Below, in pieces: positions 6,983-15,567 of a stretch of 62,483 bases of DNA. The notes under the pieces are model-generated. The model worked only from the letters and a program-made list of their open reading frames with translations. It ran no database searches and was not told where the DNA came from. This DNA is from a virus. Location of the stretch: the IMG/VR virus record IMGVR_UViG_3300038832_000018, positions 1-62,483 of that record; one strand, 5' to 3'. A program made the translations under genes and the position numbers. Within the stretch, counting starts at the first letter, position 1. Every line of letters begins with the position of its first letter.

Positions 6983-7144
6983 TGTTGACGCTTTTTAGGC
7001 AAAAGGGCGAGAAGATCGCAGTCAGGGGATTATGTATATATACGCACGGTGCCGCGCCCAAACCGAACTCAACGCGCACGACCCCCCACCCCTCGCTAAC
7101 TCGTTGATTCTCAGGAATTTCTGCCTTTTTACTGCGCGTGTGTG

Positions 7145-7524: not shown

Positions 7525-7590
7525 TTAGTAACTCTAAGTTTAATACACTCTCTTCATTTATGAAGAGTGTATTAAACATAGAGATACTTA
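7525..7590 (+). repeat. Intergenic hairpin element R1 (loop type A)
   Basis: First of seven related palindromic elements. It runs from TTAGTA to TACTTA. The stem includes AAGTTTAATACACTC pairing with GAGTGTATTAAACAT; a 2-nt TC bulge and TTCAT/ATGAA close on a tiny T-rich loop. The TTTAAT/ATTAAA part differs from other copies on both arms, so pairing is preserved. It ends 21 nt before the ATG at 7612, followed by a C-rich leader. Confidence 0.85.
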
Positions 7591-7611: not shown

Positions 7612-8034
7612 ATGGCAAACTCCGCCACCCCCTCCAAGACCTTCTACACCCCAACCCACAAGGCCGACGGCACGAAGCTGAGCCGAGCCGAGCGGAAGGC
7701 CGCCAACAAGGCCAAGTGGGCCGCCGAGCAGGCCGCGAAGCGCAAGGCTTCAAAGTCAAAGAAGAAGACCAAAGCAAAGGCAAAGGTCAAGACTGCCGAG
7801 GTCAAGCCGTCTGCCGACCGCATGAAGCTGACCGACATCAAGCAGTGGTCGGAAGCACACCCCACACGGAAAACTATGTCAGCTCTTGACTTGTCTGATT
7901 GGATGACTCAAGGTCGGACCAAGACCGCCAAGCGCCTCGACCGCAAGGGCCGCATAGACTCACAGATGTCGAAGCGGAACAACCGCCTCGAGGTTCAGGC
8001 TCAGTACAAGGGCGGACAGCTCGCCGCCTTCTGA
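7612..8034 (+). CDS. Highly basic Lys/Ala-rich protein, first gene of the rightward block
   Basis: 140 residues. Residues ~20-70 are extremely Lys/Ala-rich (KASKSKKKTKAKAKVK), resembling nucleoid or histone H1-like tails. The C-terminal half has a short helical domain (MSALDLSDWMTQGRTKTAKRL) and a basic end. It is preceded by hairpin R1 and a C-rich leader (ACCCCCAACCACC) rather than a Shine-Dalgarno. As the first early gene and strongly cationic, a nucleic-acid-binding role is inferred; the exact function is unknown. The next gene is 95 nt away, and a tRNA-like element fills that gap. Confidence 0.75.
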   Translation: MANSATPSKTFYTPTHKADGTKLSRAERKAANKAKWAAEQAAKRKASKSKKKTKAKAKVKTAEVKPSADRMKLTDIKQWSEAHPTRKTMSALDLSDWMTQGRTKTAKRLDRKGRIDSQMSKRNNRLEVQAQYKGGQLAAF

Positions 8035-8053: not shown

Positions 8054-8106
8054 AGCGTACACGGTGGCCCACATGGGCGAGGGGTTCGACTCCCCTCTGC
8101 GCTCCA
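8054..8106 (+). ncRNA. Mini tRNA-like element TLS1
   Basis: The T-arm is GAGGGG-TTCGACT-CCCCTC (8079-8097), with the canonical T-loop TTCGA. The 3' acceptor strand TGCGCT (8098-8103) pairs with AGCGTA at 8054-8059 (one G-U), or alternatively with AGCGCA at 8034-8039 over the stop codon. CCA follows at 8104-8106. Between acceptor and T-arm lie CACGGTG and a small hairpin GCCC-ACAT-GGGC, but no anticodon arm. Length and layout are wrong for a normal tRNA. Confidence 0.7.
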
Positions 8107-8364: not shown

Positions 8365-8424
8365 TTACTCACTCTAAGTATACACTCTCTTCATTTATGA
8401 AGAGTGTATACATAGAGAGAGTTA
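8365..8424 (+). repeat. Intergenic hairpin element R2 (loop type A)
   Basis: Spans TTACTC to GAGTTA. CTCTAAGTATACACTC pairs with GAGTGTATACATAGAG (the A-A mismatch typical of the family), and the outer CTC/GAG triplet differs from other copies on both arms. The TTCAT-TT-ATGAA top and the TC bulge match R1 and R3. It ends 28 nt before the ATG at 8453. Confidence 0.85.
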
Positions 8425-8452: not shown

Positions 8453-8671
8453 ATGACCCAATCCCAACGCATCGCCGCCAACATCGGCGCCCTCCGCGAG
8501 ACCACCAACAAGGCTCTCGACCTGCTCACCAAGACCGCCACGGACGCTTCCCGTGCGGAACTCGAACGACTTGAGGCCAAGCACGCTTGGCTCACCGCTG
8601 ACGGACCTGATGCGCTCCCCACGAGCGTGTGGTTCGACCTCCCGCCGAACGAGTGGTGGGACGCCAACTAA
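8453..8671 (+). CDS. Hypothetical helical protein, 72 aa
   Basis: 72 residues. It has an N-terminal amphipathic helix region (MTQSQRIAANIGALRE), a second helix of TDASRAELERLEAKHAWL type, and a C-terminal segment with VWFDLPPNEWWDAN. The start follows the leader ACCCCAACCCCAACCCC, a pure C/A repeat. The gene is set between hairpin R2 and a structured noncoding stretch. No function recognised. Confidence 0.65.
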   Translation: MTQSQRIAANIGALRETTNKALDLLTKTATDASRAELERLEAKHAWLTADGPDALPTSVWFDLPPNEWWDAN

Positions 8672-8682
8672 TCAGGCACTCA

Positions 8683-8725
8683 AGCGCACATGGTGTACAG
8701 GGGAGGTTCGATTCCTCCCTGCGCT
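8683..8725 (+). ncRNA. Mini tRNA-like element TLS2
   Basis: Acceptor AGCGCA (8683-8688) pairs perfectly with TGCGCT (8720-8725). The T-arm is GGGAGG-TTCGATT-CCTCCC (8701-8719). The linker CATGGTGTACAG contains a GG that could play the part of D-loop G18-G19. There is no D-stem or anticodon arm. The combined helix of 6+6 bp equals the 7+5 bp acceptor/T stack of a tRNA. CAA, not CCA, follows. Confidence 0.7.
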
Positions 8726-8920
8726 CAAACCATCCCGCAAGGGTGCAAGTGTCCGAATCACCGACTACGGACACCCACAGACCTAAACATCGGTGTACCC
8801 CGATACTCGTGGGGGACTTAAGCATCGAGTAGAGTAGGTGAAGCGCGTGTGACACTGACCCTCTGAGGGCAGGCGCACACCGACTCGACCCTTTAAAATG
8901 CAACCCCTAAACCCCGAACA
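8726..8920 (+). ncRNA. Structured noncoding stretch after TLS2
   Basis: No open reading frame is credible here. Successive hairpins are visible: CCC-GCAA-GGG, a GNRA-tetraloop hairpin (~8732-8745); a perfect GTGTCCG/CGGACAC stem with a 12-nt loop (8749-8774); ATCGG/CCGAT (8789-8804), overlapping an alternative pairing with the later GGGGGAC; and a nested hairpin 8825-8888 built from TCGAGT/ACTCGA, GGTG/CACC, GCGC/GCGC, CTG/CAG and CCCT/AGGG. Such density of stems suggests an RNA gene or a structured 5' leader for the small lipoprotein gene. Confidence 0.55.
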
Positions 8921-9461: not shown

Positions 9462-9471
9462 AATCCAACCC

Positions 9472-9535
9472 TTAGTATCTCTTAGTATATACACTCTCTT
9501 CATTTATGAAGAGTGTATATACTAAGAGAGACTTA
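9472..9535 (+). repeat. Intergenic hairpin element R3 (loop type A)
   Basis: The longest uninterrupted copy: TCTCTTAGTATATACACTC pairs with GAGTGTATATACTAAGAGA, with a TC bulge and the TTCAT/ATGAA top. Here the internal A-A mismatch of the family is replaced by proper pairs. It ends 19 nt before the ATG at 9555. Confidence 0.85.
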
Positions 9536-9554: not shown

Positions 9555-9962
9555 ATGGCAAAGAGAGAAAGAAAGAATGACGGCTACCTCGGGAAGGTAG
9601 AGTTCTGGACCGAGCAGTTGGCTCTCGCAAAAGAGGCGGAACAGCTCGGCCTTGAGGACCACTCACGCTACCCCATCGAGCGGTGCGAAGAGAGCCTCGC
9701 CTACTTCAAGGGCAAGCGGGCGGACTACCTCGCCAAGCACGGCGAGACCTCCGAGGCCGATGTTGAATCCGCGAAGGACCGCGCCATCCGCAAGTGTCAG
9801 GAGCGCTTCGAGGGCCTGAACGAGAGCGAGCGCATGATGCTGGCCAACAAGGTCATCAAGGATGCCACAGGCATGGGCATCAGCGTGAACGAAACGATGG
9901 CCTTCCTCAAGGACGCGGAGGTCATGAGCGACACCGAACTGATTCACTCCGTCACCTTTTAG
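9555..9962 (+). CDS. Hypothetical helical protein, 135 aa
   Basis: 135 residues, mostly helical and charged, starting MAKRERKNDGYLGKVEFW. It has a central ESLAYFKGKRADYL segment and a C-terminal region around NKVIKDATGMGISVNETMAFL. The start follows hairpin R3 and the leader ACCCCAAACCCCAAACCACT. The TAG stop lies inside hairpin R4. No known domain recognised. Confidence 0.7.
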   Translation: MAKRERKNDGYLGKVEFWTEQLALAKEAEQLGLEDHSRYPIERCEESLAYFKGKRADYLAKHGETSEADVESAKDRAIRKCQERFEGLNESERMMLANKVIKDATGMGISVNETMAFLKDAEVMSDTELIHSVTF

Positions 9963-10014
9963 ACACTCTAATAATACTCTGAACAAAGTGAAGAGTATTA
10001 TATAGAGAGTCTTA
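9959..10014 (+). repeat. Intergenic hairpin element R4 (loop type B)
   Basis: Spans TTAGAC to GTCTTA and overlaps the preceding stop codon. CTCTAATAATACTCT pairs with AGAGTATTATATAGAG. The loop GAACAAAGTGA replaces the TTCAT/ATGAA top of R1-R3; its GA...GA flanks could form tandem sheared G-A pairs under AC/GT. The outer AGAC/GTCT covaries with AGAT/ATCT in R5 and R6. It ends 18 nt before the ATG at 10033. Confidence 0.85.
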
Positions 10015-10844: not shown

Positions 10845-10903
10845 TTAGATACTCTATAGATATACTCTGAACATAGTGAAGAGTATATCGATAGAGAATC
10901 TTA
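10845..10903 (+). repeat. Intergenic hairpin element R5 (loop type B)
   Basis: TTAGAT to ATCTTA. CTCTATAGATATACTCT pairs with AGAGTATATCGATAGAG (TA versus CG is the only internal break). The loop is GAACATAGTGA. It ends 15 nt before the ATG at 10919, after a GAAACCCTGACCCCA leader. Confidence 0.85.
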
Positions 10904-11632: not shown

Positions 11633-11638
11633 ACCCCA

Positions 11639-11697
11639 TTAGATACTCTAAGTATATACTCTGAACAAAGTGAAGAGTATATACATAGAGAATCTTA
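11639..11697 (+). repeat. Intergenic hairpin element R6 (loop type B)
   Basis: TTAGAT to ATCTTA, 6 nt after the stop at 11632. CTCTAAGTATATACTCT pairs with AGAGTATATACATAGAG, with the typical A-A mismatch. The loop is GAACAAAGTGA. It ends 13 nt before the ATG at 11711 (leader AACCCCTAACCCC). Confidence 0.87.
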
Positions 11698-12046: not shown

Positions 12047-12265
12047 ATGGACTCATACGGAATCTACGTGATGGCTACCATCATCGAACACCACTGCGGA
12101 TTGCACGGAGATGCAATGGACCTGCATTGGGAGTTTTCTGCCGCACATTATGCCAACTTCTACCGCTCCCGTTGGGATAGCGAGGACCGCAGTCAGGCCG
12201 ACTGCATTGAAACATACGTCAAACACCAATCTGAGAACGACCCCGATTGGTTAAACCCTGAGTAA
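12047..12265 (+). CDS. Hypothetical protein, 72 aa
   Basis: 72 residues with an aromatic, His-rich middle (IIEHHCGLHGDAMDLHWEF) and an acidic end. It starts 3 nt after the previous stop, and its stop shares a base with the next ATG (ATGATT context), so coupling is likely. No family recognised. Confidence 0.6.
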   Translation: MDSYGIYVMATIIEHHCGLHGDAMDLHWEFSAAHYANFYRSRWDSEDRSQADCIETYVKHQSENDPDWLNPE

Positions 12266-12726
12266 TGATTGACAGACAAGTAAACGCTAAGGTCATCTAT
12301 CCTACCCTTGGCTACACCGTACTCAGTACGGGACAGGATATCCGCCGAGACGAGAACGTCGAGGTCATCGTTCACGTTGGACACGCCGCCCATGGAAGGG
12401 CGTGGTTCGAGTTCTACGACAGGAAGACAGAGGGGGAGGCGTACCACGCCGAGGGAGAACTCGAGGTCGAGGACGGCAAGCTCGTGGGGTACGATGGTGT
12501 CGGAGAACTCCCGACTGTGGTGATGGACATCGCACGGGACAAGTTCGGTGTCGACGTGTCGGAGGTGTACCACGATGACGGACAGCCCAACGAATACGAG
12601 ATGTTCATGTACTGGGTGGACGGCAAGTGCTTCCACACCATGCATGACGCCCGACAATACATCCACTCCCTCAAGCTCGATCTTGACGCGAACCGCGCCA
12701 AGTTCAAGGAGATTCAGAGGAAGTGA
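12265..12726 (+). CDS. Hypothetical beta-rich protein, 153 aa
   Basis: 153 residues, beginning MIDRQVNAKVIYPTLGYTVL. It has beta-strand-like stretches (VEVIVHVGHAAHGRAWFEF, EGELEVEDGKLVGY) and a C-terminal helix rich in Lys. No signal peptide, no cysteine motif. It starts on the last base of the upstream gene. Its stop is followed by a ~260-nt structured noncoding stretch. Function unknown. Confidence 0.65.
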   Translation: MIDRQVNAKVIYPTLGYTVLSTGQDIRRDENVEVIVHVGHAAHGRAWFEFYDRKTEGEAYHAEGELEVEDGKLVGYDGVGELPTVVMDIARDKFGVDVSEVYHDDGQPNEYEMFMYWVDGKCFHTMHDARQYIHSLKLDLDANRAKFKEIQRK

Positions 12727-12988
12727 ACGTGGTGGGGACCACGGGGAAGAGGGTGAGAGCGCACCACCCGTCATCGAATACATCGTGCGCCGAAGGGGTG
12801 AGAGGCCCCTACATGATGCGAATGGTTAATGAGGGTTCGATTCCCTCCCGCATCACCTCCTGTTCAGAGGTGTGAATTGGTATAGGGGTAGCCTATGCCC
12901 GACCTCACCACAGAAGGGAACAGGTAGCGGAACGCCTCATCCGATAAAACGACAGGGGGAAGTCGTCGAACTGCAGTCGGCGCACACT
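12727..12988 (+). ncRNA. Structured noncoding stretch upstream of tRNA-Arg
   Basis: No credible gene. In order: hairpin GTGGT-GGGG-ACCAC (~12729-12742); GCGCAC/GTGCGC (~12759-12788) around a 20-nt loop; GGGG/CCCC (~12795-12809); mini tRNA-like element TLS3; then a three-tier structure in which CCTGTTC (12859-12865) pairs with GAACAGG (12918-12924), GAGGT with ACCTC, and GGTATAGG with CCTATGCC; and ACGAC/GTCGT (~12949-12966). Probably an RNA gene cluster or a long structured leader. Confidence 0.6.
12814..12855 (+). ncRNA. Mini tRNA-like element TLS3
   Basis: Acceptor TGATGCG (12814-12820) pairs perfectly with CGCATCA (12849-12855). The T-arm is GAGGG-TTCGATT-CCCTC (12831-12847). The 10-nt linker AATGGTTAAT looks like a D-loop (TGGTTAA) without a D-stem. 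There is no anticodon arm. CCT follows the acceptor. The acceptor sequence differs from TLS1 and TLS2 yet remains fully paired. Confidence 0.72.
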
Positions 12989-13061
12989 GCCCACGTAGCT
13001 CAGGGGATAGAGCAACTGCCTTCTAAGCAGTCGGTCGCAGGTTCGAATCCTGCCGTGGGTA
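12989..13061 (+). tRNA. tRNA-Arg (anticodon UCU)
   Basis: A normal cloverleaf: acceptor GCCCACG (12989-12995) with CGTGGGT (13054-13060, G1-U72 wobble); D-arm GCTC/GAGC with AGGGGATA loop; anticodon stem ACTGC/GCAGT with loop CTTCTAA giving TCT at 13022-13024; a CGGTC variable region; T-arm GCAGG-TTCGAAT-CCTGC; and discriminator A. The 3' CCA is not encoded. It would read AGA and AGG codons. It stands 23 nt before the next gene. Confidence 0.95.
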
Positions 13062-13084
13062 CTAACCCCCAAACACACACAATC

Positions 13085-14314: not shown

Positions 14315-14472
14315 CGCAAGCATACCTCGACGAACTACAGGCTCGCATTGACGAGCTGTATGATAGGCTTCTCGATGATCCTGAGTGCAGGGCCACAGCA
14401 ATCCTGCTGTCTGCGTGCATCGACAACTACAATGCGAAACTCAAACTCCTACAGAAACCATGCGCCAACTAA
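14311..14472 (+). CDS. Small helical protein, 53 aa, coupled to the sigma factor gene
   Basis: 53 residues, entirely helical: MTQAYLDELQARIDELYDRL then a Cys/Ala-rich second helix. It starts in an ATGA overlap with the gene before and overlaps the sigma factor start by 13 nt. Its position makes it a candidate partner or anti-sigma-type modulator of the sigma factor, which is inference from location only. Confidence 0.6.
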   Translation: MTQAYLDELQARIDELYDRLLDDPECRATAILLSACIDNYNAKLKLLQKPCAN

Positions 14473-15329
14473 AAATCACACAACAAGTCACACGTAGAGA
14501 CGCTGAGTCGCTCAACAAGTACCTGACTGACATCTCACCGATTGGACTGATTGACGCACAGCGAGAGGCAGAGCTGGCCTATCGCATCCGTGTGCACGGA
14601 GACAAGCAAGCCATGGACGAGTTGGTCAAGGCTAATCTGCGCTTTGTGGTCTCCGTTGCCAAGCAGTATCAGGGGCAGGGATTGAGCCTGCAAGACCTCA
14701 TCAACGAAGGCAACCTCGGGCTCATTAAAGCGGCCACTCGCTTCGACGAGACCAAGGGGTTTAAGTTCATCTCGTATGCGGTCTGGTGGATTCGACAGCA
14801 CATCTTGCAGGGGATCAGCACGCAGGGTCGTACGGTGCGTCTGCCACAGAACAAGATTGCTACGGTGGTCAAGATTCGCAACGCCACGTCAGACCTCATG
14901 CAAGAGAACGAACGGCCCCCTACGATTTACGAGTTGGCCGAACACCTTGGCGTTTCTGTAAAGGAGATTGAGCTATGCATCTCAAACACAGGGGCAGTAC
15001 CGTCCCTGGACGCGCCATTGTCCTCCGACAGCTCTTCGAGTCCATTCATCGACATCGTCCCTGATTCCGAGGGCGACCACCCCGACCAACTCATGGACCT
15101 GATGTCCATGCGACAAGACATAGCTGAAGCGCTCAAGGTGTGCAGTCCGCGCGAGCAGAAAATCCTGTGCATGTGTTACGGCATTGGCACAGAACACCCA
15201 CACACGCTGGATGAAATCGCCGAGCACTTCGACGTCACTCGTGAACGCGTCCGACAAATCAAAGACAAAGCCATCAGACGACTGCGCCGTCCGATGATTA
15301 ACAATATGCTCCGAAGCCATTTGGGTTAG
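14460..15329 (+). CDS. Phage-encoded RNA polymerase sigma factor, sigma-70 family
   Basis: 289 residues with all core regions: region 1.2 (~12-45), 2.1-2.4 (~46-115, with ANLRFVVSVAKQYQGQGLSL and FKFISYAVWWIRQ), 3 (~130-180) and 4.2 (~230-289, TLDEIAEHFDVTRERVRQIK). There is no region 1.1. The start MRQLKIT and overall length match the Bacteroidota primary sigma very closely, so capture from a host rpoD-like gene is likely. Region 2.4/3.0 (HILQGISTQGRTVRLPQNK) differs from what I recall of host RpoD. It should redirect host RNA polymerase to phage promoters. ATG at 14460 is chosen because the longer frame runs through the upstream gene. Its stop lies inside hairpin R7. Confidence 0.92.
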   Translation: MRQLKITQQVTRRDAESLNKYLTDISPIGLIDAQREAELAYRIRVHGDKQAMDELVKANLRFVVSVAKQYQGQGLSLQDLINEGNLGLIKAATRFDETKGFKFISYAVWWIRQHILQGISTQGRTVRLPQNKIATVVKIRNATSDLMQENERPPTIYELAEHLGVSVKEIELCISNTGAVPSLDAPLSSDSSSSPFIDIVPDSEGDHPDQLMDLMSMRQDIAEALKVCSPREQKILCMCYGIGTEHPHTLDEIAEHFDVTRERVRQIKDKAIRRLRRPMINNMLRSHLG

Positions 15330-15384
15330 ACACTCTAAGTATATACTATGAACATAGTGAATAGTATATACATAGAGAGTCTTA
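15326..15384 (+). repeat. Intergenic hairpin element R7 (loop type B variant)
   Basis: TTAGAC to GTCTTA, overlapping the sigma stop codon. CTCTAAGTATATACTAT pairs with ATAGTATATACATAGAG: the C-to-A change in the inner stem (ACTAT for ACTCT) is matched by ATAGT for AGAGT. The loop is GAACATAGTGA. Unlike other copies, no C-rich leader follows; the ATG at 15385 abuts the element. Confidence 0.85.
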
Positions 15385-15567
15385 ATGATAGAGACCATGA
15401 CACTGAAAGAACAACGAGACCTGCAAGACAAACATCGAATCATGACGGCATTGATAAACAACAAGGGCCATCGACGTGCGGCCAGCATCGATCTCTGCAT
15501 GAGCGAACGCACCCTGTACCGCTACCTCCGCCGCCTTGATTTGCAAAAATTTGCCAAGAGCACTTGA
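15385..15567 (+). CDS. Small Fis/NtrC-type helix-turn-helix protein
   Basis: 60 residues. The C-terminal two-thirds reads HRRAASIDLCMSERTLYRYL then RRLDL, the pattern of the Fis-type HTH (A-x-x-L-x-[I/M]-S-x-R-T-L-Y-R-x-L). The N-terminus is a short charged helix. As a 60-residue stand-alone HTH it would bind palindromic DNA as a dimer. It begins directly at hairpin R7 and follows the sigma gene, so it may regulate early genes or itself; target unknown. An alternative Met lies four codons in. Confidence 0.75.
   Translation: MIETMTLKEQRDLQDKHRIMTALINNKGHRRAASIDLCMSERTLYRYLRRLDLQKFAKST

Follow-up and report, generated by a model that had tools for sequence, protein, structure and literature searches.

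Does the 262-nt gap upstream of a phage tRNA-Arg gene (positions 12727–12988) encode one structured RNA, and what purpose might its tRNA-like stems serve? The window, by which we mean the whole 62,483-base virus record analyzed here, places this locus between a plus-strand ORF of 153 aa (12265–12726), which matches no known family, and tRNA-Arg(TCT) (12989–13062, plus strand), called by both ARAGORN and the Rfam gathering threshold. The terminase of the window is closest to proteins of an uncultured podovirus (50% identity) and of Flavobacterium and Cellulophaga phages, and on this basis a host within the Bacteroidota is likely. Two further features of the neighborhood are a phage-encoded RNA polymerase sigma factor (phrog_351, 14385–15329) and a set of related, long AT-rich intergenic hairpins (7531–7585, 8365–8420, 9470–9535, 9960–10012, 10845–10903, 11637–11697 and 15326–15385), recognized as self-similar blocks with Rfam matches at chance level and possibly representing another cutting or promoter element.

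Separate pieces upstream of tRNA-Arg

A sequence-only reading had described the gap as a cluster of stems that might form one multi-part RNA, and the landmarks it named are present: a tRNA-like minihelix, TLS3 (12815–12855, plus strand), a hairpin closed by CCTGTTC (12859–12865) and GAACAGG (12918–12924), and the tRNA itself. As a whole, the 262 nt have a fold only marginally better than that of shuffled sequence (z = −1.90, 7 of 200 shuffles as good), and the pieces differ from one another: the first segment, E1 (12727–12812, plus strand), has z = −0.37, TLS3 −2.42, the segment 12859–12925 −3.34 (0 of 200 shuffles as good) and the remainder (12926–12988) +1.17, so that the last 63 nt before tRNA-Arg are an unstructured tail folding no better than shuffles. 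Comparison with two relatives divides the region after position 12856. In the near contig L003, identity is 91% over 12265–12856, 98.7% over the tRNA and 92% for the protein of the upstream ORF, and the place of 12857–12988 is taken by an unrelated stretch with an ORF; this segment is likewise not kept in the second relative, L007. The strong hairpin with its inner stems (12859–12924, plus strand) is absent from both relatives and phage-specific; it contains a tRNA-like GAGGT/ACCTC-ACCA end. We rejected a multi-branched RNA closed by GTGCGCCG (12785–12792) and CGGCGCAC (12978–12985), because both relatives keep its 5′ strand and lack the 3′ partner, and a viral-contig pattern of GTGAGAGCGCACC followed by GTGCGCC, whose matches other than the relative already identified, in L004 and L006, fall in different sequence and resemble coincidences. 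Contig L027 is similar to L007 as far as mid-tRNA-Arg, beyond which it continues into another tRNA cluster (L027:11100–11300), reflecting either recombination at the tRNA or a chimeric assembly.

E1 begins at the stop codon of the upstream ORF and is kept in L003 and L007. It can form hairpins from GTGGT/ACCAC and GGGG/CCCC and may pair GCGCAC (12759–12764) with GTGCGC (12785–12790), and among 23 pairs compared, none shows a change on both sides. In L007, E1 lies directly before tRNA-Arg without an intervening TLS; E1 is thus a conserved block with candidate pairing, followed closely by a TLS in some cases and by a tRNA in others. Across the three phages E1 persists, whereas the ORF that precedes it changes. 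Inspection by eye and Rfam gave no support for E1 as an HDV-like, tmRNA or RNase P RNA, no HDV family matched this part of the window at E values up to 5, and the sequence of E1 plus TLS3 matched none of the named phages. With its 3′ half unconserved and E1 free of covariation, the proposal of one multi-part RNA was not borne out: the region consists of several separate pieces, and a single structured RNA is not confirmed.

The same reading had taken the heptamer AGCGCAC, seen at 12758–12764 opposite GTGCGC (12785–12790), as a recurring acceptor strand and a possible sign of shared ancestry. Both sequences exist, and the recurrence is at chance level, with nine copies over both strands of the window against 7.6 expected (an estimate from length alone). 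The L007 homolog matches TLS1 through the acceptor strand AGCGTAC (8054) and not through AGCGCAC (8034). An ancestral AGCGCAC element thus finds no footing, given its chance frequency and an acceptor sequence that varies freely by compensatory change.

A covarying tRNA-like minihelix

The tRNA-like structures without anticodon arms are real features of the window. Under a strict definition of acceptor, linker GG and T-arm, the window holds three minihelices, TLS1, TLS2 and TLS3, whereas 300 dinucleotide shuffles averaged 0.007 and never gave three; a relaxed motif scan yields about 2.25 chance matches per 62 kb, and we therefore used only the strict motif and a covariance model. TLS3 is built from a 6-bp acceptor (12815–12820/12849–12854), a mismatch (12821–12848), AUGGU (12822–12826), a T-arm with canonical loop (12831–12847) and an A resembling residue 73 (12855), with no anticodon arm, and the GG-containing linker probably takes the place of the D-loop at the elbow. 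TLS3 has a homolog at L003:8552–8596 and starts 88 nt from the stop of its ORF, behind E1. TLS1 (8054–8104, plus strand), a minihelix with a small extra hairpin whose architecture is shared by L007:7572–7622, follows the stop of ORF 7612–8034 (plus strand) by 19 nt, and TLS2 (8683–8726, plus strand) follows that of ORF 8453–8671 (plus strand) by 11 nt. In the TLS2 homolog at L003:5172–5237, AGGCACA/TGTGTCT replaces AGCGCAC/CTGCGCT, so that both strands of the acceptor are changed and the T-arm is retained. All three window elements lie past a stop codon within a run of co-directional genes, and none of them encodes CCA.

The minihelices fall outside the tRNA-like families compared. Relative to tRNA (RF00005), they have an acceptor stem, usually lacking the seventh pair, and a canonical T-arm, and the linker is too short for an anticodon or D-arm; ARAGORN and the Rfam gathering threshold call only tRNA-Arg. 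Scores against mascRNA-menRNA (RF01684) range from 20.7 to 22.3 bits (TLS3 20.7, the L007 element 21.4), below the gathering score of 42.5.

We searched viral contigs with a pattern of TGGT, a gap and one T-arm sequence, which returned at least 120 loci; among the 120 T-arms listed, 57 lie inside ARAGORN tRNAs. In 60 unique non-tRNA T-arms from the matches listed, unselected for the acceptor, flanking complementarity of at least 6 of 7 positions at linkers of 8–12 nt occurred 22 times, compared with a mean of 4.3 and a maximum of 10 in 200 shuffles, and peaked at linkers of 10 and 11 nt (10 and 6 seen, about one each expected). A covariance model, R1, built from 19 elements matched 19 of 20 virus records at E ≤ 0.1, several with two to four matches, most of these records having been chosen for holding an element. 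Across 100 of the at least 120 scan loci, R1 gave 66 matches at E 0.001 and, at E 1e-6, 20 loci, of which 12 were model sources. TLS3, itself a model sequence, scores 49.5 bits (E 2.1e-11).

The acceptor covaries, so that pairing is conserved among homologs of the minihelix, the check that the sequence-only reading had asked for. In alignment A3 (19 rows, including three, L050, L082 and L126, whose acceptor is shifted by one position and which were retained), the covariation score is 0.608 versus 0.166, with 0 of 500 shuffles reaching it. Two alignments of distinct rows from outside the model, which were fitted to R1 and therefore lean towards its structure, score 0.537 versus 0.115 (A5, 22 rows) and 0.780 versus 0.203 (A6, nine rows), again with 0 of 500 shuffles; when the partners are slid by one to three columns, the A5 score of 0.54 falls to 0.12 or less and the A6 score of 0.78 to 0.17 or less. 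The A5 count of double-change pairs and its number of further pair types were not above shuffles (88 and 123 of 500). Alignment A4 lost register and was excluded. The seventh acceptor pair is mismatched in 22 of 22 (A5) and 9 of 9 (A6) distinct rows, giving a consensus of a 6-bp acceptor, one mismatch and a 5-bp T-stem. TLS1, TLS2 and TLS3 belong to a class of phage RNA that appears to be undescribed. Among the matches listed in full-text searches of open-access literature, none describes such a phage element; subscription papers and preprints lie outside that scope, and absence from print is therefore not established.

The element is rare in bacterial genomes: R1 at E 1e-4 matched 2 of 41 Corynebacterium genomes, a set that includes a genome already known to match, and a genome-wide pattern scan in bacteria found six stretches, three of them tRNA or tmRNA. 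A single weak R1 match in Flavobacterium elemo phage proved to be a hairpin followed by a T run and was set aside. In a separate record (MW202828, L148:520–720), two T-arm elements stand in tandem within an unannotated gap, one of them tRNA-like with an odd middle.

Placement after stop codons in named phages

Among 27 element rows from contigs (26 distinct, L133 being identical to L163), most start within about 21 nt of a same-strand stop of a mechanically called ORF. Independent annotation comes from named records reached by BLAST with the elements, of which 12 whole records were searched with the model. Five gave clear matches: Gordonia phages Morgana (seven) and ObLaDi (ten), Corynebacterium phage PSonyx (two), Mycobacterium phage Predator (six) and Caudovirus D_HF2_7 from a saliva sample (one). 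By the depositors' annotation, 24 of these 26 matches stay clear of any CDS, with an overlap of 1 nt tolerated, and 20 begin no more than 13 nt after a same-strand stop, usually 5–9 nt; one match per record seeded the fetch and is not independent, and the T-arm fragments W06 and W09 were left out of the counts. The placement was replicated in relatives of Predator, the Mycobacterium phages Konstantine (five), Fowlmouth (nine) and Damien (six), where 17 of 20 matches lie within 18 nt after a stop, a zone in which 5–7% of positions qualify, with one overlapping the stop by 6 nt, and 17 of 20 are free of coding overlap. All 46 model matches in the eight named records (seven of them isolates on Gordonia, Corynebacterium and Mycobacterium) are on the gene strand, and in Morgana and ObLaDi the strand of the element flips together with the genes; at Morgana 82863 the left neighbor is divergent and the right neighbor agrees in strand. 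The element is thus intercistronic, on the gene strand and just past the stop codon.

In the fetched stretches, 20 of the 26 annotated gaps that measure 60 nt or more hold an element, counting one weak Morgana element beyond the 26 matches; gaps without an element number 6 of 26 there and 5 of 10, 5 of 12 and 4 of 10 in the replication phages. The control phages lambda, T7 and Acadian gave zero model matches. In T4 the sole match (E 0.0068) is tRNA-Leu, and matches near E 0.01 can therefore be tRNAs. None of the element sites read in these records is annotated as RNA. In PSonyx (L168:1497–2758), the gene immediately downstream of the element carries the annotation of an RtcB-like RNA ligase.

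Equivalent gene-end slots in relatives of the window appear to be occupied by hammerhead-like ribozymes. A type I motif at L003:4314–4363 (23.7 bits, E 0.032) fills the slot after the homolog of the ORF preceding TLS1, and successive gene ends in L007 carry two type I-like hammerhead motifs (6699 and 7051–7100) and one TLS; Rfam matches the first of the two motifs only as a weak type III (E 0.83), and the L007 score is 21.7 bits. The scores of 23.7 and 21.7 bits, both for motifs with intact cores, fall below the hammerhead gathering score of 34 (RF00163). A further type I-like motif at L015:5388 has a core found by custom scan alone, a variable stem I and no Rfam match.

A candidate intercistronic cutting site for RNase P

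We propose, with a probability of roughly two in three, that these minimal tRNA mimics are intercistronic cutting sites for host RNase P, amounting to “tRNA punctuation” without tRNAs. The transcribed element would fold as a minimal substrate of host RNase P, which would cut at its 5′ end and free the upstream mRNA near its stop codon; a tRNA 3′-processing enzyme may then cut the 3′ end and release an RNA of about 42 nt, a step in which RNase Z may take part by analogy. RNase P cutting between genes would thus turn one long transcript into messages with separate stability and translation, and the hammerhead-like ribozymes in equivalent gene-end slots fit the same task. What the sequence comparisons show is that the element exists, covaries, is spread through unrelated phages and sits past stop codons; its parts and position suit a cutting site, and ribozymes apparently substitute for it. 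Encoded CCA helps RNase P in some substrates. Its absence from the window elements counts against cutting, as do the constant mismatch, the element-free gaps and the distance of TLS3 from its ORF stop; since the seventh pair is mismatched in 31 of 31 distinct rows, the stack is 6 + 5 bp plus a mismatched pair, where RNase P measures 12 bp. The elements have the acceptor/T-arm stack and T-loop of an RNase P substrate, and the enzyme is described as cleaving acceptor/T-arm hairpins, its known substrates including the non-tRNA phage RNAs M3 RNA, P1/P7 C4 RNA and T4 gene 32 mRNA (PMC11143913). Those are single cases, whereas the TLS, whose cutting we infer, covaries and recurs from one gap to the next.

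Two other roles for the RNA are unlikely, to a similar degree. The element sits just past the stop codon, and the acceptor/T-arm is the part of tRNA read by the CCA-adding enzyme and EF-Tu, so it could cap the upstream mRNA, receiving CCA, perhaps being charged or bound by EF-Tu, and shielding against 3′ exonucleases like the tRNA-like ends of plant viral RNAs; yet the hammerhead-like motifs that fill such slots in relatives would not act as a cap, and a cut would still be required for the gene downstream. A trans-acting small RNA that decoys tRNA-reading defense nucleases, modification enzymes or RNase P itself would fit the presence of several copies in each phage, constant in the elbow and variable in the acceptor, but a decoy needs neither a post-stop position nor strand agreement with genes. 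Considerably less probable is a cis-acting aid to release, reinitiation or rescue, in which a tRNA shape at the stop works like the tRNA domain of tmRNA without its message. The typical stop spacing of about 7–9 nt favors it, as does the Predator element at L169:1497–1539, which matches Rfam tmRNA (RF00023) at 21 bits (E 3e-5, gathering score 47) with the message domain deleted; however, the elements have no tag frame or tag-coding domain, none reaches 47 bits, ARAGORN finds no tmRNA, and stop spacing extends to 303 nt, with TLS3 88 nt away.

Explanations without a dedicated RNA function are the least credible. Decayed tRNA genes or attachment-site remnants would account for T-arms that match real tRNAs and for the nearby tRNA-Arg in the window, but not for a covarying acceptor or for a truncated form, with AUGGU/ACGGU, that is shared by unrelated phages and always lies on the gene strand. 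Equally improbable are DNA-level repeats such as repressor sites between genes, even though the elements are intergenic in a single orientation, as cluster A stoperators are described to be (PMC3029335): the pairing of the acceptor is conserved while its primary sequence is not.

To return to RNase P cutting sites, to our knowledge the separation and balancing of genes in long phage transcripts is poorly understood beyond T7-type RNase III sites and isolated ribozymes. In mitochondrial transcripts, complete tRNAs mark the cutting sites between protein genes; the phage marks likewise lie between genes of one long transcript, and are 42-nt mimics without decoding. The MALAT1 tRNA-like end, for which cleavage by both RNase P and RNase Z is described (PMC4919922), and its MEN-beta counterpart (mascRNA/menRNA) resemble the phage element in being tRNA-like, at the 3′ side of a transcript and without a real anticodon arm, but are eukaryotic, occur once per transcript and belong to a family whose gathering score the phage elements do not reach. 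Hammerheads flanking phage genes have been proposed to cut long transcripts into gene-length mRNAs (PMC3088659); they are self-cleaving, whereas the TLS lacks a ribozyme core. Theta ribozymes, which are HDV-like, are also phage cutting elements beside a tRNA, but are described as processing tRNA 3′ trailers (PMC10879173).

The carriers include Predator, Konstantine, Damien and Fowlmouth on Mycobacterium smegmatis and PSonyx on Corynebacterium glutamicum, phages grown in teaching laboratories, so the idea is directly testable, and the covariance model easily locates elements in phage records that leave them unannotated at the sites read. If the proposal is correct, phages systematically use a compact mark read by RNase P, an enzyme that the host cannot lose. 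We lean slightly towards the broader view that, in phages of several unrelated host groups, a two-arm tRNA serves as reusable punctuation, exchangeable with self-cleaving ribozymes, through which host enzymes would dice polycistronic messages and release a pool of tRNA-like small RNAs.
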